DNA of 64,000 nt from Longispora fulva (GTDB lineage: Bacteria; Actinomycetota; Actinomycetes; Mycobacteriales; Micromonosporaceae), in the NCBI RefSeq assembly GCF_015751905.1, contig NZ_JADOUF010000001.1:4216001-4280000 (forward strand). Direction: 5' to 3'. Positions 6,771 to 36,922 of this stretch are shown here, piece by piece. Within the stretch, counting starts at the first letter, position 1; each line of letters begins with the position of its first letter. Under the pieces are notes generated by a model that did no database searches, had not been told where the DNA came from, and saw only the letters and a list, made by a program, of their open reading frames with translations. Both the position numbers and the translations under genes were made by a program.

Positions 6771-7610
6771 ATGCGGATCACCCATCGACTCGTCGGGCTG
6801 GCCACGGCGGTGACCCTCGTCGCGGCGGCTCCCCTCGCCCTCGCGAGCTCCGCCTACGCGCAGTCCGAAGCGCTCGGATCCCACGTCACCGCCGCGCACG
6901 TCGACCTGACCGACCCGCACAAGAAGGACATCGCCATGCAGCTGGTGTCCAGCGCTGAGAACTCCTCGCTGGACTGGAAGGCGCAGTACAAGTACATCGA
7001 GGACATCAAGGACGGGCGCGGGTACACGGCCGGGATCATCGGGTTCTGTTCCGGCACCGGGGACATGCTCGACCTGGTGGAGCTGTACGCCCAGCGCAAG
7101 CCGGGCAACGTGCTGGCCAAGTATCTGCCGGCGCTGCGCAAGGTCAACGGCACCGAGTCGCACGCCGGCCTCGGCTCGGCCTTCGAGAAGGACTGGAAGA
7201 CCGCCGCCAACGACGCCGCCTTCAAGAAGGCCCAGGACGACGAGCGCGACCGGGTGTACTTCACCCCGGCCGTCAACCAGGCCAAGGCCGACGGCCTGTG
7301 GGCCCTGGGTCAGTTCGCCTACTACGACACCATCGTGATGCACGGCGACGGTGGCGACCGCGACAGTTTCAGCTCGATCCGGAAGAACGCGCTGAAGAAG
7401 GCCAAGCCGCCGTCGCAGGGCGGGGACCAGGTGGCCTACCTCAACGCGTTCCTCGACGCGCGCAAGGTCGCCATGAAGCACGAGGAGGCGCACGCCGACA
7501 CCAGCCGGGTCGACACCGAGCAGCGGGTGTTCCTCAAGGCCGGCAACCTCGACCTGAACCCGCCGCTGAGCTGGAAGGTCTACGGCGACCCGTTCCACAT
7601 CGCCAGCTAG
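6771..7610 (+). CDS. csn: Secreted GH46 chitosanase
   Basis: This 279-residue endo-chitosanase cleaves beta-1,4-linked glucosamine polymers outside the cell. A Sec signal peptide ends near ASSAYA-QS (residue 30). The catalytic region SSAENSSLDWKAQYKYIEDI with downstream DGRGY matches family GH46: E63 (acid) and D81 (base) are 18 residues apart, as in Streptomyces N174 chitosanase (E22/D40). Length is typical and no accessory domain is present. AGGAGG lies 8 bp before the ATG. A palindrome at the predicted start site suggests repression in the absence of inducer. It is convergent with the MFS gene, with a bidirectional hairpin between. Confidence 0.95.
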   Translation: MRITHRLVGLATAVTLVAAAPLALASSAYAQSEALGSHVTAAHVDLTDPHKKDIAMQLVSSAENSSLDWKAQYKYIEDIKDGRGYTAGIIGFCSGTGDMLDLVELYAQRKPGNVLAKYLPALRKVNGTESHAGLGSAFEKDWKTAANDAAFKKAQDDERDRVYFTPAVNQAKADGLWALGQFAYYDTIVMHGDGGDRDSFSSIRKNALKKAKPPSQGGDQVAYLNAFLDARKVAMKHEEAHADTSRVDTEQRVFLKAGNLDLNPPLSWKVYGDPFHIAS

Positions 7611-9242: not shown

Positions 9243-12146
9243 TCAGGTGTGGGCCGCGGAGATCCCCGCCAGTTTAGTGCTGGCCAGGTCGTGCGCGAGG
9301 ATCGCCGTCTCCACCGCCGCGACCGTCGAGGAGGAGGTCACGCCGGGGAGGGTGGCCACGTCGATGGCGTACAACGTGAACTCGTACTGATGGGAACTCC
9401 CGCCCGGGCAGGGGCCGAAGAACTGCAGGGCCTTGTTCCCGGTACTCATCCCCTTCTGCTTCGCCGGCGCGTTCCCCGGCACGTCGTAGCCGAGGCCGAG
9501 CCCTTCGGGCAGCGAGCCGGCGCTCGGCGCGACGTCCCAGATCACCCAGTGCTTGTTGCTGTTGGCCGTGTCGACCAGGGTGATCGCGTAGCTCTTCGCC
9601 CCGGCGCTCGCGCCCCAGGCCAGCGGGGGCGAGATGTCGTTGCCGGCCACCCCGTCCTGCTGGCAGGTGTACTTCACCGGGATCGTGCCGCCCGCCGGGA
9701 ACGCGCCGCTCGTCAGGCTGAACGGCGAGCCTGCGAACTTCAGCCGGACGATCACGTTGTCCAGCACGCTGGGCGTGCCGCCGTTCTTGTCGTTGTTCGT
9801 GGAGGTCAGCCACAGGCCGCCGTCGGGGGTCTTGACGACGGTGCGCAGCCGGCCCCACCGGCCGTTGAAGAACGCCCGGGGCGCGTCGGTGGTGGCCCCG
9901 GTGATGTGCATGACCCACAGCCGGCTGCCCCGGATCGCGGCCATGTAGATCCAGTCGTTGACGATCTCCAGGCCGCTGGGCGAGGCGGCGGCGACGTCCC
10001 ACTGCTGCACCGGGCTGACGTAGCGCGAGTCGGAGCACTTGCCCTCGCACGTCGGCCAGCCGTAGTTCTTGCCCGGCTGGATCAGGTTGAGCTCGTCCCA
10101 GGTGCTCTCGCCGAGTTCGGACTCCCACAGCCTGCCCTGGGAGTCCCAGGCCAGGCCCTGGACGTTGCGGTGCCCGTAGGAGTAGATCCGGGTGCCGAAC
10201 GGGTTGCCGGGCGCCGCCGCCCCGGTCGTGGTGACCCGGAGGATCTTGCCGTTGAGGGAGTTGAGGTCCTGGGCACGGGAGCTGGTCTTGGCGTCCCCGG
10301 TGGCGATGTAGAGGAAGCCGTCCGGGCCGAACTTGAGCCGGCCGCCGTTGTGGAACTGGTTCTTGGCGATGCCGGTGACGATGGGTTCGCGGGCCCCGAT
10401 GGCCCCGTTCTCGTACGTGAGCCGGGCGACCCGGTTGTCCGAGGAGGACGTGTAGTAGATGTAGACGTAGTGGTCGGACGCGTAGCTCGGCGACACCGCG
10501 AGCCCGAGCAGGCCGCCCTCGCCGCCGGTCGTGACGGCCTCGGTGACCTTGCCGACGACGGTCTTCTGCCCGTCGGCGGTGACCCGGACGATCTCGAACC
10601 GGTCGCGCTCGTTGACCAGCGCGGACCCGTCGGGCAGGAACCCGATCCCCCACGGCAGGTCGAGCTTGGTGATGTCCTTGTCGTAGACCGGGTCGCCACC
10701 GCCGCCCCCGGAGCCGGGGGTCCGCACCGACAGCGCGGGGCTGCGCGGCGAGACGTTGTTGTTGGCGTCGAACGCCTCCACGGTGAAGGCGTAGGTGGTG
10801 TTGGCGGTCAGGCTGTCGGCCGTGGCCTGCAGGTCGGGCACCGTGGCGAACTTCGTGCCGTCGCGGTAGACGTTGTAGCCGGTCACCGCGGAGTTGTCCG
10901 TGGCGGCCGTCCAGGCCAGGGTGACGCTGGTGGCCGACACGTTCGTGGTGTGCAGGTTCGCCGGGACGGTCGGCGGCTGGGTGTCGTCGCTCGGCGGGGT
11001 GGTGATGTCGAGGCTGTTGCTGGCCTGCGAGACGTTGTCGGCCGCGTCGCGCGCGGCGACGGTGAGGATGTAGCGGGTGTTCGGGGTCAGGTTGCGCACC
11101 GCGGTGGTGGTGACGTTGCCGCCGATCTCGGCGACGATGTTGCCGCCGTTGTACACCTGGTAGAGGGCCACGCCCACGTTGTCGGTCGCCGGGTCCCAGG
11201 CCACCTGGACCTGGTTGGGGGTCGGGGCGCCGACGAGCCGGAAGTTCGGCGGGACGGTCGGCGACTCGGTGTCCGTGGGGGCGGCCACGCCGAGCTTGTC
11301 GAGGTTGGGACCGCCGGCGGCGCTGGAGCCGGTGAGCCGGACCGTGTTGGCGCCGGCGGTGAGTGCGGCGTTCACGGTCCGCGTCGCCCAGGTGTCCCAG
11401 GTGGTGGTGGAGGGGAACGACACCGCCGGGGCGACCACGCTGCCGTTCACCGACACGTCGAGGGGGCGGTCGGTGGTGGTGCCGTTGGAATACCGGACCG
11501 CGAGGGCGTGGTTGCCGGCCACCGCCGCGTTCACCGTGAACTCGACGTAGCCGCCGGCGGCGTTGTCGTAGTTGACGAAGCCGGTGCCGGTGTAGCCGGT
11601 GTGGTTGGCCTCGACGACGCCGCCGACGATCGTGGCGTTCTCAGCCTGGTAGTCGGCGCCCGGGGAGGCCGTGACGTCCACGTCGAGGTAGTCGAGGTTG
11701 GGACCACCCGTCGCCGTGGTGCCGGTGAGCCGGATCTTGTTGGCACCGGCCACCACGGGCGCGGTGAGCGTCCTCGTCGCCCAGGTGTCCCAGTTCGCGG
11801 TGGCCGGGAACGACGCGCCGGCCGCGACCACGGTGCCGTTCACCGTCACATCGGCGGGGCGGTCGGCGGCGGTGCCGTTGGCGTAGCGCACCCCGATCGT
11901 GGCGGTGCCGGCCGACGCGGCGGTCACGGTGAACTCGACGTAGCTGCCGACGGCGTTGGTGGAGTCGACGAAGCCGGTACCGGAGTATCCGGTGTGGTTG
12001 GTGGCGACCACGCCCTGGACGATGGTGGCGTTCTCCGCCTCGTAGCGGGTGGCCGCGGCGGCGGCGCTGCCGGCCGGGAGCATGGCCGCGACCAGCAGCG
12101 CCGAGCCGAACGCCGGCAGGAGACGCAGAAGGGGTCTGGACTTCAC
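9243..12146 (-). CDS. Secreted modular PQQ-type sugar dehydrogenase: CBM35-CBM35-Fn3-Fn3-GSDH-PEBP
   Basis: The protein has 967 residues. In order: signal peptide (1-32); two CBM35-like modules (about 35-160 and 165-290, each opening Y-x-AEN); two fibronectin III domains (about 295-475); a Gly/Ser linker; a glucose/sorbosone dehydrogenase six-bladed propeller (about 485-810; FHNGGRLKFGPDGFLYIATGD motif region and GHRNVQGLAWD); and a C-terminal YbhB/YbcL-type PEBP domain (about 815-965; ISPPLAWG, HWVIWDV, GPCPGG). GSDH proteins (sGDH, Asd, AA12) use PQQ to oxidise sugars. The window also has a pqq operon and the CBM35s resemble those in its flanking CAZymes, so a PQQ holoenzyme bound to plant polysaccharide is a reasonable inference. 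The start is GTG. The PEBP fusion is unusual. Confidence 0.9.
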   Translation of the reverse strand: MKSRPLLRLLPAFGSALLVAAMLPAGSAAAAATRYEAENATIVQGVVATNHTGYSGTGFVDSTNAVGSYVEFTVTAASAGTATIGVRYANGTAADRPADVTVNGTVVAAGASFPATANWDTWATRTLTAPVVAGANKIRLTGTTATGGPNLDYLDVDVTASPGADYQAENATIVGGVVEANHTGYTGTGFVNYDNAAGGYVEFTVNAAVAGNHALAVRYSNGTTTDRPLDVSVNGSVVAPAVSFPSTTTWDTWATRTVNAALTAGANTVRLTGSSAAGGPNLDKLGVAAPTDTESPTVPPNFRLVGAPTPNQVQVAWDPATDNVGVALYQVYNGGNIVAEIGGNVTTTAVRNLTPNTRYILTVAARDAADNVSQASNSLDITTPPSDDTQPPTVPANLHTTNVSATSVTLAWTAATDNSAVTGYNVYRDGTKFATVPDLQATADSLTANTTYAFTVEAFDANNNVSPRSPALSVRTPGSGGGGGDPVYDKDITKLDLPWGIGFLPDGSALVNERDRFEIVRVTADGQKTVVGKVTEAVTTGGEGGLLGLAVSPSYASDHYVYIYYTSSSDNRVARLTYENGAIGAREPIVTGIAKNQFHNGGRLKFGPDGFLYIATGDAKTSSRAQDLNSLNGKILRVTTTGAAAPGNPFGTRIYSYGHRNVQGLAWDSQGRLWESELGESTWDELNLIQPGKNYGWPTCEGKCSDSRYVSPVQQWDVAAASPSGLEIVNDWIYMAAIRGSRLWVMHITGATTDAPRAFFNGRWGRLRTVVKTPDGGLWLTSTNNDKNGGTPSVLDNVIVRLKFAGSPFSLTSGAFPAGGTIPVKYTCQQDGVAGNDISPPLAWGASAGAKSYAITLVDTANSNKHWVIWDVAPSAGSLPEGLGLGYDVPGNAPAKQKGMSTGNKALQFFGPCPGGSSHQYEFTLYAIDVATLPGVTSSSTVAAVETAILAHDLASTKLAGISAAHT

Positions 12147-12255: not shown

Positions 12256-13767
12256 TCAACCGCAGGAGCTGGTCGAACCCGTGGCCGACACCTTCGCCGG
12301 GCCGCCGGCGGTGGTGGTGGCGGCGGTGACGCAGTACCCGGAAACGTGCTGGAATCCCAGGTCGAACGGTCCGCCGGAGCCCCGCTGGGCCGTGAAGTGG
12401 TCGAAGGTGACGTCCGAGCCGGCGTTGACGATCACCGCCGGCCGCTGGTCGTCCGCCGCGAACCGCACTGAGCTGGCGGTGAAGGTGATCCCGCTGACCT
12501 CGTGCAGGTACCAGCCGTAGGCCGGCCGGGTGCCCAGGCTCTTCGGGTTGTAGTCGCCGGTGTCGTCCGGCACCTTCGTCGGGTCCGTCGCGGCGTGCCC
12601 GCCGGGCACCGTGAGGTCGACGTGGTCGAAGCTGACGTCCGTCACCGGGTGCCCCGGCTGGCCCCAGATGGTCGGACTGTAGGCCCCGGCGCTCGTGCCG
12701 CGGACGTTGCTGAAGTGGATGTCGCTGATGCTCCCGACGCCGGGGCCGTCGCCGCACCGCTTCCGGGTGCCGACCTTCAGCATGATCGGGGAGGCGGTGT
12801 TCGCCATCGTGACGTCGTCGTAGCGCACGTCGGAGATCCGCGCGCCGTCCATCGACACCAGGCCCAGGCCCGACTTGCCCGCGCCGGTGATCGTGACGTG
12901 GCTGAACCGGTAGTGGGTGAAGTCCCCGCAGGTCTCCGAGCCGAACATCAGCGCGTTGCAGCAGCCGGCGGACAGCTGGGCGGTGTCCACCGTGACGTTG
13001 CCGTTGGGCAGCTTCTGGCCGAGGGCGTAGTCGCTCTTGAAGACCAGGGCGTCGTCGTTGGCCGCGGCGTGGATGTTGGTGATGACGACATTTCTGGTAC
13101 TGATGATGTTCCAGCCGTCCCGGTCCCCCGCCGTGTCGATGGTCAACCGGTCCGACGTCACGTGGTCGCACCCGTTGATCAGGGCCGCGAAGTGCCCGCC
13201 GCGCTTGAGGGTGATGCCCGACAGGGTCAGCCCGTCGCACCGGGTCAGCGAGAGGATCTTGTCGGCCTCGCCGGACTTCGGGTTGCCGGTGATCAGGTTG
13301 CCGCCGCCGTCGATGGTGCCCGAGCCGGTGAAGCCGATGTTGGTCAGCCGGTCGCCGTGGATCATCGCGTTGTGGAAGTGGCTGTGCCCGTAGTCCTGGT
13401 ACCTGTCGTTCGGGTTCGGCTCCGGCGGGTCGTAGGTGTCGGCGCCCGAACCCTTGATCGTCGAGCCGGCGTCGAGGCGCAGGGTCACGTCGCTGAGCAT
13501 GTGGATGGTGGTCGCCGACCGGTAGGTGCCGGCCGGGAACTGGACAGTGCCGCCGCCGGTCGCGTGGTTGGCCGCGACGATGGCCTTGTTGATGGCGGCG
13601 GTGTCGTTGGCGTTGCCGTCGCCCTTCGCGCCGTAGTTCCTCACGTTGAAGACGGCGGCGGACGGCGCTGACGTGGAGGTGGCCGGGGCTGCTGTCGCCG
13701 GGGCTGCTGTGGCGGCCACCGCCGCCGTGACCGCTACGAGAACGGGTCCCACTCTTCGAGTCGACAC
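12256..13767 (-). CDS. Secreted GH28-like right-handed beta-helix pectin hydrolase
   Basis: This 503-residue exported protein has a signal peptide (about 1-30) and the family start FNVRNYGAKGDGNANDT, followed by helix coils. One Asp pair is seen in AAANDDALVFKS, and CDGLTLSGITLKRGG also fits GH28. The canonical Gly-His-Gly is not obvious; the equivalent stretch reads CNALMFGSETCGD, so this may be an exo-acting or divergent subfamily member acting on galacturonan. GTG at 13765-13767 is chosen because GAAGGGAGA precedes it by 5 bp. It is divergent from the PL6 gene 168 bp away. Uronate catabolic genes (kduI/kduD, kdgD/gudD) in the window fit a pectin role. Confidence 0.82.
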   Translation of the reverse strand: MSTRRVGPVLVAVTAAVAATAAPATAAPATSTSAPSAAVFNVRNYGAKGDGNANDTAAINKAIVAANHATGGGTVQFPAGTYRSATTIHMLSDVTLRLDAGSTIKGSGADTYDPPEPNPNDRYQDYGHSHFHNAMIHGDRLTNIGFTGSGTIDGGGNLITGNPKSGEADKILSLTRCDGLTLSGITLKRGGHFAALINGCDHVTSDRLTIDTAGDRDGWNIISTRNVVITNIHAAANDDALVFKSDYALGQKLPNGNVTVDTAQLSAGCCNALMFGSETCGDFTHYRFSHVTITGAGKSGLGLVSMDGARISDVRYDDVTMANTASPIMLKVGTRKRCGDGPGVGSISDIHFSNVRGTSAGAYSPTIWGQPGHPVTDVSFDHVDLTVPGGHAATDPTKVPDDTGDYNPKSLGTRPAYGWYLHEVSGITFTASSVRFAADDQRPAVIVNAGSDVTFDHFTAQRGSGGPFDLGFQHVSGYCVTAATTTAGGPAKVSATGSTSSCG

Positions 13768-29547: not shown

Positions 29548-32232
29548 ATGGGTCAGCACAGGATCAGCCGTCGGACGGTGCTCGGGACGGCGGCCGCCGC
29601 CGCGACCGGGGCGGCGTTGACCGCCGGGCCGGCCTCAGCCTCCCCCGGCCGGGTGGTCGCCACGAGCGGGACCACCGCCGTGCAGGGGGTCCCGCTCGAC
29701 AACCGGATGGCCACCGACGCCCAGTGGGCCGACTTCCTCCAGGGCTGCGACCTGGTGTGGAAGCGGCTGCCGACCGTGTGGCACGAGGGCCCGTTCCTCG
29801 GCGACGGCCGGCTCGGCAGCATGGTCTACCAGGAGCCCGGCAAGAACCAGATCCGGTTCACGGTGCAACACGGCGAGGTGCAGGACCACCGGCCGGAGTT
29901 CGGCAGCCAGTACGGGGTGTGCCGGCTGCCCGTCGGCTACCTCACCCTGGAGCCGGTCGGCACGATCAGCTCCGTCGACTGGCGGCTGGACCTGTGGAAC
30001 GCCGAGCTGACCGGCACGGTCACCACCTCGGCCGGCACGCTGACGCTACGGGCGTACATCCACGACGAGGTGCTGGTCGCGAAGGTGACCGCCAGCGGCG
30101 GGGAGCGGGTGGCGTGGACGTTCCACCCGCAGGCCGCGATCTCGCCCGCGTACCCGGGGAAGCCCAAGCCGGACGGCTACACCGACAACCCCGCGCCGGT
30201 CAGCAAGAGCACCGGGGACGCCCGGCAGGTCACCCAGACGCTGCTCGGCGGCGGGCGGACCGCGACCGCCTACCGGCAGGCCTCCGGCACCCTCCTGCTG
30301 ACGGTCGCGCACAGCTACCCCGGGACGACCGCCGAGGCCACGGCGTTGAACAGGGTCACGGCCGCCAGCGCCGACCCGGCCGCGCACCGCGACTGGTGGC
30401 ACGCCTTCCACCGGAAGAGTTTCCTGTCCATCCCGGACCAGCGGATGCAGGCGTTCCACTGGATCCAGCTCTACAAGGTGGCCTCGGGGTCGCGGGCCGG
30501 CGGGCCGGTCATGGCGACGACCGGGCCGTGGCTGGAGCCGACCCCGTGGCCGGCGGTGTGGTGGAACCTGAACGTCCAGCTGGAGTACTGGCTGATCCAC
30601 GGCTCCAACCACCTCGAACTCGACGCGGTCACCAGCACCCTGGCGAACAACCAGCAGCAGCTGATCGACAACGTGTCCAGCGCCTACCGGTCGGACTCCT
30701 CGGGGCTCGGCCGCAGCTCGGACATGTTCTGCAACCGCAGCGTCGGGAAGCCGGGGGACGCGGGTACCCCCGAGGTGGGCGATCTGACCTGGGCCCTGCA
30801 CAACGTGTGGCTGTCCTACCGGCACACGATGGACGACACGATGCTGCGCAATGTGCTGTTCCCGATCCTGCGCCGGGCCGTCAACTACTACCTGCGCTTC
30901 CTCACGACCGACTCGGCGGGCCGGATGCACCTGCCGCAGACGTTCTCCCCGGAGTACGGCACCAACGCGCCCGACTGCAACTACGACCTCGCCCTGCTCC
31001 GCTGGGGCTGCCAGACCCTGCGCGAGTCGGCCACCCGGCTGGGCATCACCGACCCGCTCGCCTCGAAGTGGCAACAGGTGCTCGACAAGCTGGCCGCCGC
31101 GCCGACCGACGCGAACGGCTTCATGATCGGGGCCGGGGTGCCGTTCGCGATGTCGCACCGGCACTACTCGCACATGCTGTCGGTGTACCCGCTGTACCTG
31201 GTGAACTGGGACCGGCCCGGCGACCGGGCCCTGATCGAGACGTCGGTGAACCACTGGCTGGGCCTGACCGGCGCGCACCGGGGCTACTCCTACACCGGGG
31301 CCGCGTCGTTCTGCGCCATGATGGGCCGGGGCAACGCCGCGCTGGGCTGGCTGAACAAGTTCTTCGACCCGACGGTGTCCTACCCGGTGCGGGCCAACAC
31401 GATGTACACCGAGGCCGGGCCGGTGATCGAGACCCCGCTGTCGGCGTCGCAGTCCCTGCACGACATGCTCGTCGCGAGCTGGGGCGGCGTGATCCGGGTG
31501 TTCCCGGCGGTGCCCGACGCGTGGGCCGACGTGACCGTGCACGACTTCCGCACCCAGGGCGCGTTCCTGGTCAGCGCCGCGCGGGTCGGCGGGGCGACCC
31601 GGTTCGTCCGGGCGCGCAGCCTGGCCGGGGAGCCGTTGCGGCTGCGGCCCGGGATCGCCTCCTCGTCGGTACTTCTCCAGGCCGAGGACGCCGTGCTCGC
31701 CGGCGGCGTCGTGGAGGCCAACCACGCCGGCTACACCGGCAGCGGGTTCGTCAACTTCGACAACGTGGCGGGCTCGGCGGTGCAGTTCACGGTGACCGCG
31801 CCTTCAGGACCCACAAACCTCCTTTTCCGGTACGCCAACGGCACAGCCGTCGACCGCCCCTGCGCCCTCACCGTCAACGGCGCTCCCGTGACGACGCTGT
31901 CGTTCCCCGGCACCGGAAACTGGGACACGTGGACGACCCGGGCCGCCACGGTGACCCTGGCGGCGGGGTCGAACACGGTCCGGCTCGCGGCCACCACCGC
32001 GAACGGCGGCCCGAACCTCGACAGCCTCGCGGTCGGCACCGGAGGCGGGTTGGCCGTGGTGCTCGACGACGGGTCGGCAGCGGTATGGCGCGACCTCGGT
32101 GACGGGGTGATCGAGATCGACCTGGCCCGGGACCGGGAGGTGCTGGTGCACGCGGCCGGGCCGACACCGGCGTGCGTGGTCGCGCCGGTGCCGGTGAGTC
32201 GGCCGGGGGCGGCATGGGGGCTGCCGGCCTGA
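29548..32232 (+). CDS. Tat-exported GH95-family alpha-L-fucosidase/galactosidase with internal CBM35
   Basis: The 894-residue protein has a twin-arginine signal (HRISRRTVLGTAAAAATGAA). The GH95 N-terminal beta domain reads PTVWHEGPFLGDGRLGSMVY. An (alpha/alpha)6 barrel follows with WWNLNVQLEYWLIHG and MSHRHYSHMLSVYPLYLV. A CBM35-like module occupies about residues 708-832 and is followed by about 60 residues (VVLDDGSAAVWRDLGDG...REVLVHAAG) that look like the end of the GH95 C-terminal beta domain, so the CBM seems inserted into it. GH95 enzymes hydrolyse alpha-1,2-fucosyl or alpha-L-galactosyl linkages, as in xyloglucan and mucin glycans. The product would suit the fucose operon at 44.8-55 kb. 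The pqq operon follows by 135 bp. Confidence 0.88.
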   Translation: MGQHRISRRTVLGTAAAAATGAALTAGPASASPGRVVATSGTTAVQGVPLDNRMATDAQWADFLQGCDLVWKRLPTVWHEGPFLGDGRLGSMVYQEPGKNQIRFTVQHGEVQDHRPEFGSQYGVCRLPVGYLTLEPVGTISSVDWRLDLWNAELTGTVTTSAGTLTLRAYIHDEVLVAKVTASGGERVAWTFHPQAAISPAYPGKPKPDGYTDNPAPVSKSTGDARQVTQTLLGGGRTATAYRQASGTLLLTVAHSYPGTTAEATALNRVTAASADPAAHRDWWHAFHRKSFLSIPDQRMQAFHWIQLYKVASGSRAGGPVMATTGPWLEPTPWPAVWWNLNVQLEYWLIHGSNHLELDAVTSTLANNQQQLIDNVSSAYRSDSSGLGRSSDMFCNRSVGKPGDAGTPEVGDLTWALHNVWLSYRHTMDDTMLRNVLFPILRRAVNYYLRFLTTDSAGRMHLPQTFSPEYGTNAPDCNYDLALLRWGCQTLRESATRLGITDPLASKWQQVLDKLAAAPTDANGFMIGAGVPFAMSHRHYSHMLSVYPLYLVNWDRPGDRALIETSVNHWLGLTGAHRGYSYTGAASFCAMMGRGNAALGWLNKFFDPTVSYPVRANTMYTEAGPVIETPLSASQSLHDMLVASWGGVIRVFPAVPDAWADVTVHDFRTQGAFLVSAARVGGATRFVRARSLAGEPLRLRPGIASSSVLLQAEDAVLAGGVVEANHAGYTGSGFVNFDNVAGSAVQFTVTAPSGPTNLLFRYANGTAVDRPCALTVNGAPVTTLSFPGTGNWDTWTTRAATVTLAAGSNTVRLAATTANGGPNLDSLAVGTGGGLAVVLDDGSAAVWRDLGDGVIEIDLARDREVLVHAAGPTPACVVAPVPVSRPGAAWGLPA

Positions 32233-32367: not shown

Positions 32368-32478
32368 ATGGACACTCGTAGGTCACGCAGGCCCTGGAAG
32401 CGGCCGACGGCCGTGCAGGTCTCCCTCGGCGCGGAGGTCACGTCGTACAGCGGCGCCGACCCGTACAACCCGCGCTGA
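32368..32478 (+). CDS. pqqA: PQQ precursor peptide PqqA
   Basis: This 36-residue peptide has a basic first third (MDTRRSRRPWKRP). The hallmark core AEVTSYSGADPYNP holds E23 and Y27 (Glu-x3-Tyr), the two residues that PqqE cross-links to build pyrroloquinoline quinone. AGGAGGACAGG lies directly before the ATG. It is followed after 2 bp by pqqB, so it heads the operon. It is longer at the N-terminus and more basic than typical 22-29-residue proteobacterial PqqA. No pqqF/G-type protease gene is adjacent, so a general protease must release the cross-linked dipeptide. Confidence 0.93.
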   Translation: MDTRRSRRPWKRPTAVQVSLGAEVTSYSGADPYNPR

Positions 32479-32480
32479 CC

Positions 32481-33419
32481 ATGTGGGCGCGGATTCTCGG
32501 ATCCGCCGCCGGCGGCGGGTTCCCGCAGTGGAACTGCTCGTGCCGCAACTGCGACGGCGCCCGGACCGGCCGCCTGCCGGTCCGGGCCCGGACCCAGGCG
32601 GCGTTGGCCGTCAGCGGGGACCGGCGGGGCTGGTTTCTGGTCAACGCGACCCCGGACATCGGCGCGCACCTGGCCCGGCTCGCGGAGCCCGCTGCTGCGG
32701 CCGGGGGTGGCTCGGCCGGAGGTGAGGCCCGGGGCAGCACCGCCGGAGGGGAGATCCGGCGGAGTCCGGTCCGGGCGGTGCTGCTCACCGACGCCGAGCT
32801 GGACCACACCGCCGGGCTGCTGTCTCTGCGCGAGGGTGACGGCCTCACGGTGTACGCGACCGCCGCCGTCTTCCGCGCCGCCGCCCCGCTGCTCGCGATC
32901 CTCGGCGCGTACCAGCCGGTCCTCCGCCGGGTGCTCGAACCCGGGGTGGACACCCCTCTCGACGGGTACCTGAGCGTGCGCGCCCTGCCGACCGGCTCGA
33001 CGAAGCTCCCCCGTTACGCCGCGCACCTGCCCGCCGACCCGGCCGGCGTCGTGGGCTACGTGTTCACCGGGCGGGGCGGCGCCGTCCTGGTCTACCTGCC
33101 GTGTGTGCCCGAGCTGACCCCCGACCTGGTCACGGAGCTGGAGGCGGCGGACTGCGCGCTGGTCGACGGCACGTGCTGGACCGACGACGAGATGGCGCTG
33201 GTCGGCCGGCCGGAGAAGACGTCCCGGTCGATGGGCCACGCGCCGGTCACCGGCCCCGGCGGCACCCTGCCGGTCCTGGCCGGGTTGGCCACCCCGCGCC
33301 GGATCTACACCCACCTGAACAACACCAACCCGCTGCTCGTCGAGGACTCCGCGGCCCGGCGCGCCGTCGAGGCGGCCGGCGTCGAGGTGGCCCACGACGG
33401 GATGGAGTTCGCGCTATGA
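32481..33419 (+). CDS. pqqB: PqqB, metallo-beta-lactamase-fold PQQ biosynthesis hydroxylase
   Basis: The 312-residue cytoplasmic protein starts with the diagnostic LGSAAGGGFPQWNCSCRNC, including the Cys-x-Cys-x2-Cys Zn-binding element. It continues with TDAELDHTAGLLSLREG, the PqqB version of the metallo-beta-lactamase metal motif. PqqB hydroxylates the Glu-Tyr-derived intermediate before PqqC acts. A low-complexity insert (AAAAGGGSAGGEARGSTAGG) near residue 75 is lineage-specific. Its stop overlaps the pqqC start (ATGA). Confidence 0.95.
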   Translation: MWARILGSAAGGGFPQWNCSCRNCDGARTGRLPVRARTQAALAVSGDRRGWFLVNATPDIGAHLARLAEPAAAAGGGSAGGEARGSTAGGEIRRSPVRAVLLTDAELDHTAGLLSLREGDGLTVYATAAVFRAAAPLLAILGAYQPVLRRVLEPGVDTPLDGYLSVRALPTGSTKLPRYAAHLPADPAGVVGYVFTGRGGAVLVYLPCVPELTPDLVTELEAADCALVDGTCWTDDEMALVGRPEKTSRSMGHAPVTGPGGTLPVLAGLATPRRIYTHLNNTNPLLVEDSAARRAVEAAGVEVAHDGMEFAL

Positions 33420-34096
33420 CGGAACAGTTCGTCGCCGAGCTGCGGCGGCGCGCCACGATCTACTGGGAGAAGCACCCTTTCCAGCAGGCGATGCTCGCCG
33501 GCGAGTTGGCCCCGGACGCGATCCGGGCCTTCGTCTCCAACCGGTGGTACTACCAGGCCTCGTTGCCGCGGAAGGACGCCGCGATCATCGCCAACTGTCC
33601 CGTGCCGGCCGTCCGCCGACGGTGGCTGGAGCGGATCGCCTACCACGACGGGGCGGCCGAGGGCGAGGGCGGGATGGCCGACTGGCTGGCGCTGTGCGAC
33701 GCCGTGGGGCTGGACCGGGCGGACGTGCTCGACCCGGAAAAGGTGCTGCCCGGGGTGCGGTTCGCCGTGGACAGGTATTCCGCCTTCGCCCGGGAGGCGT
33801 CCTGGGTGGCGGGGGTGGCGTCCTCGCTGACCGAGCTGTTCGCGCCCGACCTGATGGGGCGGCGGATCGAGGCGTTCCGGACCCACTACCCGTGGATCGA
33901 CCCGGCCGGGCTGGCCTACTTCGAGAAGCGGTGCGTGCAGGCCCCGCGCGAGGCCGGGCACGCCCTGGAGGTGGTCCTGGAGTACGCGCGGACGGCCGAG
34001 CAGCGGGCGGCGTGCGCGGACGCGCTGACCCTGAAGTGCGAGGTGCTGTGGGCGATGCTCGACGCGCTGGACCACGCGTACCGGGGGCACCGGTGA
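33416..34096 (+). CDS. pqqC: PqqC, pyrroloquinoline-quinone synthase
   Basis: This 226-residue all-helical, cofactor-free oxidase performs the final ring closure and eight-electron oxidation to PQQ. Conserved features include FVSNRWYYQASLPRKDAAIIANCP, RIAYHDGAAEGEGGMADWL, DRYSAFAREASWVAGVASSLTELFAPDLMGRRI, and HYPWIDPAGLAYFEKR with active-site His and Arg/Tyr. The start ATG lies in the 4-bp overlap with pqqB, and the stop overlaps the GTG of pqqD. Length is slightly below the usual 235-255. Confidence 0.95.
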   Translation: MTEQFVAELRRRATIYWEKHPFQQAMLAGELAPDAIRAFVSNRWYYQASLPRKDAAIIANCPVPAVRRRWLERIAYHDGAAEGEGGMADWLALCDAVGLDRADVLDPEKVLPGVRFAVDRYSAFAREASWVAGVASSLTELFAPDLMGRRIEAFRTHYPWIDPAGLAYFEKRCVQAPREAGHALEVVLEYARTAEQRAACADALTLKCEVLWAMLDALDHAYRGHR

Positions 34097-34344
34097 TCCC
34101 CCGGCTCGCCGCGCACGTGGCGCTGCACTGGCAGCCGGCGCGGGGCACGTGGCTGTTGACCCGGCCGGAGTCGGTGGTGGTGCTCAACGAGACGGCCGCG
34201 GACATCCTGACCCTGTGCGACGGGGTCCGCGACGTCGGGGAGATCACCCGGACCCTCCGGCGCAGCTACTCCGACGTCGAACCGGCCGAGGTCGAGGAGC
34301 TGCTGGCCGACCTGGCCCGCCAACGCCTGGTGGTGCTGACGTGA
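34093..34344 (+). CDS. pqqD: PqqD, PqqA-binding chaperone (RiPP recognition element)
   Basis: This 83-residue winged-helix RRE protein binds the PqqA peptide and presents it to PqqE. It shows LHWQPARGTWLLTRPESVVVLNETAADILTLCDG (beta3-alpha core) and the helical half ending EVEELLADLARQRLVVLT. GTG start and TGA stop both sit in 4-bp overlaps with its neighbours, giving strict translational coupling of C, D and E. Confidence 0.94.
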   Translation: MIPRLAAHVALHWQPARGTWLLTRPESVVVLNETAADILTLCDGVRDVGEITRTLRRSYSDVEPAEVEELLADLARQRLVVLT

Positions 34345-35402
34345 TCCCCGCGCCGCTGGGGATGCTCGCCGAGCTCACCCACGCCTGCCCCCTGCACTGC
34401 CCCTACTGCTCCAACCCCGTGGCGCTGGCCCCGCGCGACTCCGAACTGTCCACCCAGGAGTGGGACCGGGTGTTCGGCGAGGCCGCCGCGCTCGGCGTCG
34501 TGCAGGCCCACCTGTCCGGCGGCGAACCGCTGCTCCGCCGGGACCTCGACGAGCTCGTCGCCAGCTGCGGGCGGCACGGGCTGTACACGAACCTGATCAC
34601 CAGTGGGCTCGGGCTCGACGCCGACCGCCTGGCCCGGCTGCCGGTCGACCATGTCCAGATCAGCGTGCAGGACGCCACCGAGCGGGCCTCCGACGACATC
34701 GCCGGCACCCGGTCGTGGGCGCGGAAGATCACCGCGGCCCGGGTGGTGAAGGACGCCGGCCGGCCGCTGACCCTCAACGTCGTGCTGCACCGGGCCAACG
34801 TCGACCACGTCGGGGCGGTCATCGCGCTCGCCGGAGAGCTGGGCGCCGACCGGCTCGAACTCGCGCACACCCAGTACTACGGCTGGGCGCTGCGGAACCG
34901 GGCGTGGCTGATGCCGTCGATGGAGCAGGTGCTGGCGACGGCCGAGGTGGTGCGGGCGGCGCGTACCCGGATGGAGATCTCCTATGTTCTTCCCGACCTG
35001 CACACGGGCACGCCCAAGCCGTGCACCGGAGGCTGGGGCCGGACCCAGCTGACCGTCGCGCCGGGCGGAGAGGTGCGGCCCTGCGCCGCGGCCGACTCGC
35101 TGCCGCTGGAGTTCGCCAACGTCCGCGACCGGTCCCTGGACTGGATCTGGTACTCGTCGCCGTCGTTCAACCGCTTCCGGGGTACCGACTGGATGCCCGA
35201 CCCGTGCCGGAGCTGTGCCCTCAAGGACGTCGACCTGGGTGGCTGCCGGTGCCAGGCGTTCCAGCTCACCGGCGACCCGGGCGCGACGGATCCGGTGTGC
35301 CGGCTGTCCCCCGACCGGCACCTCGTGGACGCGGCCCTCGCCGGGCCGCCACAGACCGCCCCCTTCCCCCGTCCGCACGCTCCGAAGGGTCCCTCCTCAT
35401 GA
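34341..35402 (+). CDS. pqqE: PqqE, radical SAM/SPASM enzyme cross-linking Glu and Tyr of PqqA
   Basis: The 353-residue enzyme has the radical SAM motif C16-x3-C20-x2-C23 (CPLHCPYC), the SAM-binding LSGGEPLLRRDL, and a SPASM region with Cys in CTGGWGRTQLTVAPGG, VRPCAA, PDPCRSCALKDVDLGGCRC. This holds auxiliary clusters. It forms the carbon-carbon bond between Glu and Tyr of PqqA with PqqD present. The start GTG overlaps pqqD. The stop TGA (35400-35402) overlaps the ATG of a secreted GH105 enzyme. Confidence 0.95.
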   Translation: MIPAPLGMLAELTHACPLHCPYCSNPVALAPRDSELSTQEWDRVFGEAAALGVVQAHLSGGEPLLRRDLDELVASCGRHGLYTNLITSGLGLDADRLARLPVDHVQISVQDATERASDDIAGTRSWARKITAARVVKDAGRPLTLNVVLHRANVDHVGAVIALAGELGADRLELAHTQYYGWALRNRAWLMPSMEQVLATAEVVRAARTRMEISYVLPDLHTGTPKPCTGGWGRTQLTVAPGGEVRPCAAADSLPLEFANVRDRSLDWIWYSSPSFNRFRGTDWMPDPCRSCALKDVDLGGCRCQAFQLTGDPGATDPVCRLSPDRHLVDAALAGPPQTAPFPRPHAPKGPSS

Positions 35403-36922
35403 ACCTGCGAAGAAGCACCGTCCTGCTCGGGACGGTGGCGGCGCTACTACTGCCCCCGACGGGCGCGCTCGCCCTGCCGGACGCCGCCGGCTATGAGGCC
35501 GAGAACGGCACGTTGTCCCAGGCCGTGGTCGAGTCCAACCACGCCGGGTACACCGGCACCGGGTTCGTCAACTACGACAACGTGGCCGGCGGGTACGTCG
35601 AGTTCACCGTGCCGGCGACCACGACCGGGCCGGCGACGCTGACGTTCCGGTACGCCAACGGGACCACCGGGGACCGGCCGCTCGCCGTGGCCGTCAACGG
35701 CACGGCCACGGCCACCGCGTTCCCGGCGACCGGCGCGTGGACCACGTGGCGGACGGTCACGGTGACCGCCACGCTCGTGGCCGGGCCGAACACCGTCCGG
35801 GCGACCGCGGCGACGGCGGCCGGCGGCCCCAACCTCGACTCGGTGACGGTCGGGGGCCAGGCCGGCACCGACTGGTCCGTGGCCGTGACCGACTCGACGA
35901 TGCGGCGCAAGACCCCGGACACGCTCGGCGGCTGGGGCTACACCGAGGGGCTGTACCTGTACGGGCAGTACCTCGTCTACCAGCGCACCCACGACCCCCG
36001 CCTGCTGTCCTACCTGCGGGCGTGGGCGGACCGGTTCGTCGCCGCCGACGGGAGCGTCGGTTTCTCCTTCAACAACCTCGACCAGATGCAGTCGGGCAAC
36101 GTGCTGCTGCTGTTGGCGAGGGAGACCGGGCAGGCGAAGTACCAGAAGGCGGCGAAGAAGATCCGGGACCGGCTGCGCACGTACCCGACCACGGGCGACG
36201 GCGGGCTGATCCACGCGACGAGCAAGACCGGGCAGCTGTGGGCGGACGGCTCGTTCATGGTGGTGCCGTTCATCATCCGGTACGGGCACCAGTTCGGCGA
36301 GGCCCAGTGGGGCGACGACCTTGCGGCCCAGCAGCTCCTCGTCTACGCCTCCCACCTCCAGCAGAGCAACGGGCTGCTGCTGCACGCCTACGACGAGACG
36401 AGGTCGCAGAGCTGGGCGGACAGGCAGACCGGCCTGTCCTCGCAGTACTGGTGCCGGGCCATCGGCTGGTACGGCATGGCCGCGATCGACACCCTCGAAC
36501 TCCTCCCCGCCGACCACCCGAAACGCGCCGCGATCGTCGACTCGCTCCGCCGACTCGTCGCCGGGTACGCGCGCTACCAGGACCCGGCCACCGGGCGCTG
36601 GTTCCAGGTCGTCGACCGCGGCGAGCTGGCGGGCAACTGGACCGAGACGTCGTGCTCGGCGATGTACGCGTTCACGGTCGACCGGGCCGTCCAGCGCGGC
36701 TACGTGGACGCGTCCTACCAGCCGGTCGCCGACCGGGGCTACCGGGGCGTGCTCGGCAAGGTGGGAAAGAACTCCGACGGGCTGAGCGACGTGGCCGACA
36801 TCAGCGTCGGCACGAACGTGGGCGACCTTAACTACTACCTGAGCCGCACCCGGGCCACGAACGACCTGCACGGCCTCGGCGCGTTCCTGATCATGAACGA
36901 ACAGCTGGGCCCGGTGGGCTGA
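35399..36922 (+). CDS. Secreted CBM35-GH105 unsaturated glucuronyl/rhamnogalacturonyl hydrolase
   Basis: The 507-residue protein has a signal peptide (1-25; ALLLPPTGALA), then a CBM35-like module (about 30-157; YEAENGTLSQAVVESNHAGYTGTGFVNYDN). The (alpha/alpha)6 GH105 domain (about 160-505) follows, with GGWGYTEGLYLYGQYLVYQRT, GQLWADGSFMVVPFI and QYWCRAIGWYGMAAID. GH105 removes the unsaturated uronate left by pectate or rhamnogalacturonan lyases, yielding 5-keto-4-deoxyuronate for KduI. Its ATG overlaps the pqqE stop, so it is translationally coupled to the PQQ operon. It has no upstream RBS gap of its own. Confidence 0.9.
   Translation: MNLRRSTVLLGTVAALLLPPTGALALPDAAGYEAENGTLSQAVVESNHAGYTGTGFVNYDNVAGGYVEFTVPATTTGPATLTFRYANGTTGDRPLAVAVNGTATATAFPATGAWTTWRTVTVTATLVAGPNTVRATAATAAGGPNLDSVTVGGQAGTDWSVAVTDSTMRRKTPDTLGGWGYTEGLYLYGQYLVYQRTHDPRLLSYLRAWADRFVAADGSVGFSFNNLDQMQSGNVLLLLARETGQAKYQKAAKKIRDRLRTYPTTGDGGLIHATSKTGQLWADGSFMVVPFIIRYGHQFGEAQWGDDLAAQQLLVYASHLQQSNGLLLHAYDETRSQSWADRQTGLSSQYWCRAIGWYGMAAIDTLELLPADHPKRAAIVDSLRRLVAGYARYQDPATGRWFQVVDRGELAGNWTETSCSAMYAFTVDRAVQRGYVDASYQPVADRGYRGVLGKVGKNSDGLSDVADISVGTNVGDLNYYLSRTRATNDLHGLGAFLIMNEQLGPVG

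Follow-up and report, generated by a model that had tools for sequence, protein, structure and literature searches.

What does a PEBP domain do when it is permanently joined to a dehydrogenase? The question is raised by a gene in a 64,000-nucleotide stretch of the Longispora fulva genome (contig NZ_JADOUF010000001.1, positions 4,216,001 to 4,280,000; hereafter the window, in which coordinates are given unless another locus is named), whose product carries a GSDH propeller followed by a C-terminal PEBP (YbhB/YbcL) domain. Florigen and RKIP are relatives of the bacterial PEBP/YbhB proteins, and we know of no assigned role for the bacterial members. With the domain attached to an enzyme whose chemistry can be predicted, there are fewer ligands to look for. 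The architecture is real, conserved and published; the new details concern the site of the PEBP and its link to PQQ.

The open reading frame (9243-12146, minus strand; third-position GC 0.98) starts with GTG, preceded by GAGGTGAG, and encodes a 967-residue protein. Its N-terminal MKSRPLLRLLPAFGSALLVAAMLPAGSAAAAA, judged by eye, has the look of a secretion signal (residues 1 to about 31, 12054-12146), and the protein is probably secreted, in agreement with the preliminary description. After the signal peptide, Pfam and PDB searches gave the order two CBM35, two Fn3, GSDH and PEBP, all on the minus strand, and all four Pfam matches exceeded the curated cut-offs. CBM_35 matched two stretches (6.5e-18, 65.6 bits against a cut-off of 28); CBM35 a spans residues 34-158 (11673-12047; Pfam and local domain mapping) and CBM35 b residues 161-288 (11283-11666; Pfam). 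The two are 66% identical, and the nearest solved structure, also for CBM35 b, is the CBM35 of the exo-beta-glucosaminidase CsxA (2vzp, 5e-41). Two fn3 matches (4e-17) were mapped by Pfam and local domain mapping to residues 297-381 (11004-11258) and 392-478 (10713-10973). The GSDH propeller occupies residues 485-806 (9729-10694), with HNGGR, GHRN, DELN, NYGWP and GRLRT motifs; PF07995 matched residues 495-786 (7e-68, 229.8 bits against 25), and the best PDB hit was 3das (6.6e-92 over ~310 residues). The PEBP domain, delimited by Pfam and by alignment to YbhB, covers residues 807-967 (9246-9728). PF01161 matched residues 821-961 (2.8e-21, 76.7 bits against 24) and the NCBIfam YbhB/YbcL profile TIGR00481, with a cut-off of 57.75, gave 64.4 bits; the best PDB hit was YbhB itself (1vi3, 3e-10; 1.9e-13 with a PEBP profile). 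The domain order and gene coordinates read at first from the sequence, including a PEBP at the C-terminus, were thus recovered by Pfam, NCBIfam and PDB searches.

The same preliminary reading called the build unusual, which holds among PEBP proteins generally, but the build is published in Actinobacteria and recurs in several families. Tsoy & Mushegian 2022 (PMC8793217) state that actinobacterial YbhB domains are frequently C-terminal in longer proteins, in the order CBM, Fn3, GSDH, YbhB, with WP_014179790.1 of Streptomyces as an example, and that the proteobacterial forms are GSDH-YbhB or GSDH-Fn3-YbhB. In their proposal, what GSDH takes up or releases is converted by the YbhB part, or else the cofactor is its target. 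The architecture has therefore been published since 2022 and is not new, and the window protein is a further member. Relative to the available parts of that paper and the literature searched, three points are new: the apparent loss of an Asp and an Arg in the fused PEBP, the contrast between a conserved PEBP and the existence of a PEBP-less paralog and a truncated Embleya copy, and the link with pqq genes.

By profile search, 3 of 61 sampled genomes of the family to which the window belongs carry the fusion, as do, by strong matches, 14 of 399 sampled genomes of its order. Named genomes with the fusion also include Nonomuraea, Planotetraspora, another member of the Streptosporangiaceae, a Hamadaea MAG and Catelliglobosispora. 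Local domain mapping showed that 18 copies besides that in the window share the domain order, with one to three CBM35 modules; one of them (L068) had no automatic PEBP call, and the domain was recognised in its printed tail. Nineteen copies from separate assemblies rule out a recent assembly artefact. Samples of the wider phylum and class, in which part of each genome's candidates was scored, yielded no further fusion, an absence that carries little weight, and none of the Streptomyces fusions known from PMC8793217 was recovered in the sampled genomes. The viral contigs searched contained no relative. Long PEBP frames such as L099 and L105 were rejected as fusions, being ORF overruns, and no 'Rosetta stone' GSDH gene lay beside single-domain PEBPs within the fetched flanks.

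In a tree of 82 PEBP domains, whose bootstrap values are not fully settled and in which some rows have long branches, the 19 actinobacterial fusion PEBPs formed one clade (100/96). Their sister group consists of secreted single-domain PEBPs from the same order, which likewise lack the Arg (joint clade 100/99). These single-domain proteins (L081-L088) mostly have Asn-Thr where His-Arg is expected. Two alphaproteobacterial fusion PEBPs were placed elsewhere in the tree, and the topology fits an actinobacterial fusion that arose once, separately from the alphaproteobacterial one. Plasmid-borne alphaproteobacterial GSDH-PEBP genes, annotated only as YbhB/YbcL family (L114, 5578-7431; L115, 5623-7416), have genes for DNA repair (Ku, LigD) and for DUF4142 proteins in their vicinity.

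The fused PEBPs differ from the family at the site itself. Five signature residues, two Asp, two His and one Arg, mark the family according to PMC8793217: the cavity is lined by three of them, and the other two pair in a salt bridge over its rim. Alignment of the 19 actinobacterial fusions to YbhB, in which the loop columns are uncertain by a few, showed the first Asp and the first His in 19/19; the second His is present in 16/19, with Asn in the other 3, and the second Asp and the Arg were found in 0/19. In all 19 copies the loop that follows the first Asp, DPDAP in YbhB, is shorter, and by eye no Asp can be fitted at the second position. Among single-domain PEBPs outside the sister group in the same sample, the second Asp was present in 25 of 31 and the Arg in 23 of 31. 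The window PEBP retains D859, H866 and H919, has Q920 where Arg is expected, and carries conserved C828 and C913. Two of the five residues are thus missing from the fusions, presumably the salt-bridge pair. This bears on the published idea of the five residues as a universal active site, since the fusions lack the exact set. Groups with multiple replacements that are still family members are, in PMC8793217, mitochondrial L35/L38 and plant PYBHB; on the alignment, the actinobacterial fusions would be a further such group. Binding of phosphorylated or lipid-type ligands, as first suggested for the domain, holds for the PEBP family, but a simple transfer of these ligands is disfavoured by the non-canonical site. 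An AlphaFold model of the PEBP alone reached pLDDT 45 on a shallow alignment, and its 8 best PDB matches were all PEBPs; neither this model nor that of GSDH-PEBP (pLDDT 33, also from a shallow alignment) is reliable.

Altered as it is, the domain is well conserved. Between distant fusions, PEBP identity equals that of GSDH (57.5 versus 57.6%); between near ones it is 73.8 versus 80.2%, and it exceeds that of CBM35 and Fn3. The fused PEBP is therefore under constraint, and blocks such as FGPCPGG are invariant. Two loci lack an intact PEBP. Catelliglobosispora koreensis has, about 2 kb past pqqB, a CBM35x2-Fn3x2-GSDH paralog without PEBP; in Embleya sp. NBC_00888 (L116, around 6973-7040) a CBM35-Fn3-Fn3-GSDH frame meets a stop codon early in the PEBP, the remainder of which has decayed. 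Judging from these genes, the propeller can evidently dispense with the PEBP in some lineages, and the earlier suggestion that the PEBP stabilises the propeller is weakened.

The propeller itself has the features of a PQQ enzyme. PMC6881810 identifies, in sGDH, the His that acts in catalysis and the Arg-Asn residues that flank PQQ, and the HNGG/HDGG and GHRN motifs are present in every aligned actinobacterial fusion. These motifs and the pqqABCDE genes (32368-35402, plus strand), about 20 kb from the fusion gene, bear out the first assignment of a PQQ-type propeller. pqqA (32368-32478), read from the sequence, encodes a 36-residue precursor peptide with an EVTSY core; pqqB (32481-33419, TIGR02108), pqqC (33416-34096, TIGR02111), pqqD (34093-34344, TIGR03859) and pqqE (34341-35402, TIGR02109; PqqE match 1.4e-142) all exceeded NCBIfam equivalog cut-offs. 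Because the window holds pqqABCDE, the host should be able to make PQQ. In the order sample, PqqE was found in 14/14 fusion genomes versus 63/399 overall (Fisher 1.6e-12 by genome), and by genus in 5/5 versus 23/86 (about 0.001), with the qualification that one genus supplies most of the genomes, which are not independent, and that the statistic ignores kinship. Over all fusion genomes tested PqqE was present in 17 of 19; it was not found in the Hamadaea MAG and in Streptosporangiaceae NEAU-GS5.

The pqq genes are flanked by two CBM-tagged polysaccharide-degrading enzymes: upstream of pqqA a GH95 (fucosidase-type) enzyme with a CBM6/35 domain match (29578-32232, plus strand), and downstream a GH88/105-type hydrolase with CBM35 (35399-36922, plus strand), which begins 4 bases inside the end of pqqE, so that its start and the pqqE stop overlap. 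Compared with the CBM35 modules of the fusion, those of these enzymes show 56-63% identity, that of the GH88/105 enzyme ~61% to CBM35 b. A GH28 pectinase-type gene (12256-13644, minus strand; start not fixed) lies directly upstream of the fusion. The window further contains a GH46 chitosanase, a chondroitinase-B-type lyase, KduI, SDRs, dehydratases, FAA hydrolase and L-lactate permease genes. Judged by their families, the GH28, GH105-type, GH95, KduI, SDR, MR_MLE and FAA hydrolase genes near the fusion fit pectin and deoxyhexose breakdown. The segment 38777-56121 (SDR, KduI, amidohydrolase, MR_MLE, FAA hydrolase, mutarotase-like, lactate permease) resembles a non-phosphorylative L-fucose or L-rhamnose route. 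The chitosanase gene (6771-7610, plus strand) lies two genes from the fusion, and the fusion's CBM35 has chitosan-degrading CsxA as its nearest match.

This neighbourhood is conserved only between the window genome and Catelliglobosispora. A region of about 45 kb in C. koreensis holds the fusion together with pqq genes, the PEBP-less paralog and many CAZymes that carry CBM35; around the pqq genes there (L139-L141; G017:C43:44043-70307) runs a series of some ten proteins, each having one or two CBM35 modules. Copies from other families showed no shared carbohydrate genes among their neighbours, and the fusion gene looks monocistronic. The neighbours there, recognised by eye, are unrelated (for example ergothioneine-type and whiA-type genes), so local clustering of the fusion with pqq is not general; a conserved operon around the fusion was rejected, the neighbours varying among copies.

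What we infer for activity, substrate, target polysaccharide and PEBP role is, with somewhat better than even confidence, a CBM35-targeted, PQQ-dependent aldose dehydrogenase in which the PEBP serves as an accessory ligand-binding module. The two CBM35 modules would direct the secreted enzyme to uronic-acid-rich plant polysaccharide, a preference carried over from relatives and presumed here by analogy, and the Fn3 domains would act as spacers. The hydrolases with CBM35 encoded nearby would release the substrates, free aldoses or the ends of oligosaccharides; the propeller would oxidise their C1 to lactones and pass the electrons to an acceptor. The C-terminal PEBP, strongly conserved but altered at its pocket, may be an accessory addition that the propeller does not need for folding; its most likely role is to bind a partner or a small ligand: a sugar-acid or lactone product, the acceptor, or a surface. 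A bolder version, to which we give a minor chance, is that the fused PEBPs and their secreted single-domain relatives form a derived group with a rebuilt pocket, whose ligand is a sugar acid, lactone or quinone supplied by the attached dehydrogenase. If true, the fusion would help to find a ligand or activity for a bacterial PEBP.

Other readings are less likely. PEBPs elsewhere work through protein contacts, and the domain could be an anchor or a contact site for the cell surface, a lipid or an electron acceptor, unrelated to the sugar chemistry; its C-terminal position, altered pocket, conserved cysteines and the existence of PEBP-less relatives would all suit such a role, which we nevertheless consider rather unlikely, since neither a surface motif nor a partner gene was found and attachment is already supplied by the CBM35 modules. 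We hold it improbable that the PEBP is a second enzyme, which converts the GSDH substrate or product (by lactone opening, for example) or handles the cofactor in a two-step chain, as proposed by Tsoy & Mushegian (PMC8793217). The high conservation of the PEBP and of the fusion in Actinobacteria speaks for this proposal, as do the separate alphaproteobacterial fusion with a canonical PEBP site and the retention of the first Asp and first His in all 19 copies and of the second His in 16, but a strict catalytic site should be intolerant of losing the second Asp and the Arg in every actinobacterial copy and of Asn for the second His in three; the Arg is lost in the nearest single-domain relatives too, and the C. 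koreensis paralog manages without a PEBP. A PEBP that has no function and is merely being carried along as it decays, as the lost signature residues and the Embleya stop codon might suggest, is very improbable given a conservation across distant fusions equal to that of GSDH and the invariant blocks.

Equally improbable is that the fusion donates electrons to LPMOs in an AA12-like manner, as the preliminary description proposed: the AA12 enzyme CcPDH drives an LPMO, but only with the help of an AA8 cytochrome, its AA12 domain by itself being insufficient (PMC5960967), and because the Pfam scan found no AA8 domain in the window fusion the proposal is weak. A single AA10 LPMO was found in the genome, and a diffusible mediator could still transfer electrons to it, but its gene lies about 2.7 Mb from the fusion; direct feeding of an LPMO by the fusion is unsupported. 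In a different respect, L-fucose is a substrate of AA12 enzymes and the window has deoxyhexose-type genes, and by this analogy L-fucose-specific oxidation by the propeller is only a lead.

Returning to the CBM35-targeted dehydrogenase with an accessory PEBP, its parts can be set against known systems. The fungal AA12 proteins of CAZy (CcPDH, TrAA12) have a related PQQ propeller fold, and CcPDH is also joined to a CBM; it carries the AA8 cytochrome and CBM1, whereas the window fusion has neither. The closest solved GSDH-fold chain, 3das, annotated only as 'putative oxidoreductase', has the catalytic motifs in common with the fusion, but 3das, Acinetobacter sGDH and E. coli aldose sugar dehydrogenase are single-domain proteins without CBM35, Fn3 or PEBP. 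The fusion PEBP scores above the cut-offs of the Pfam PBP and YbhB/YbcL profiles, and the top fold matches of its low-confidence model are all PEBPs; YbhB/YbcL members are free-standing, whereas the fusion PEBP is tied to GSDH and two of the five signature residues are gone. The alphaproteobacterial fusions (Sphingomonas bisphenolicum WP_129965654.1, Agrobacterium vitis WP_174096450.1) likewise place PEBP after GSDH, but have no CBM or Fn3 match, share only about 25% identity with the window fusion, and keep canonical or near-canonical residues (DPD..HW..HR/HH). Closest are the actinobacterial CBM-Fn3-GSDH-YbhB proteins: in PMC8793217 their CBM is labelled 'pectate lyase-like', whereas the window fusion has two identified CBM35 modules, and their domain order is identical to that of the window fusion.
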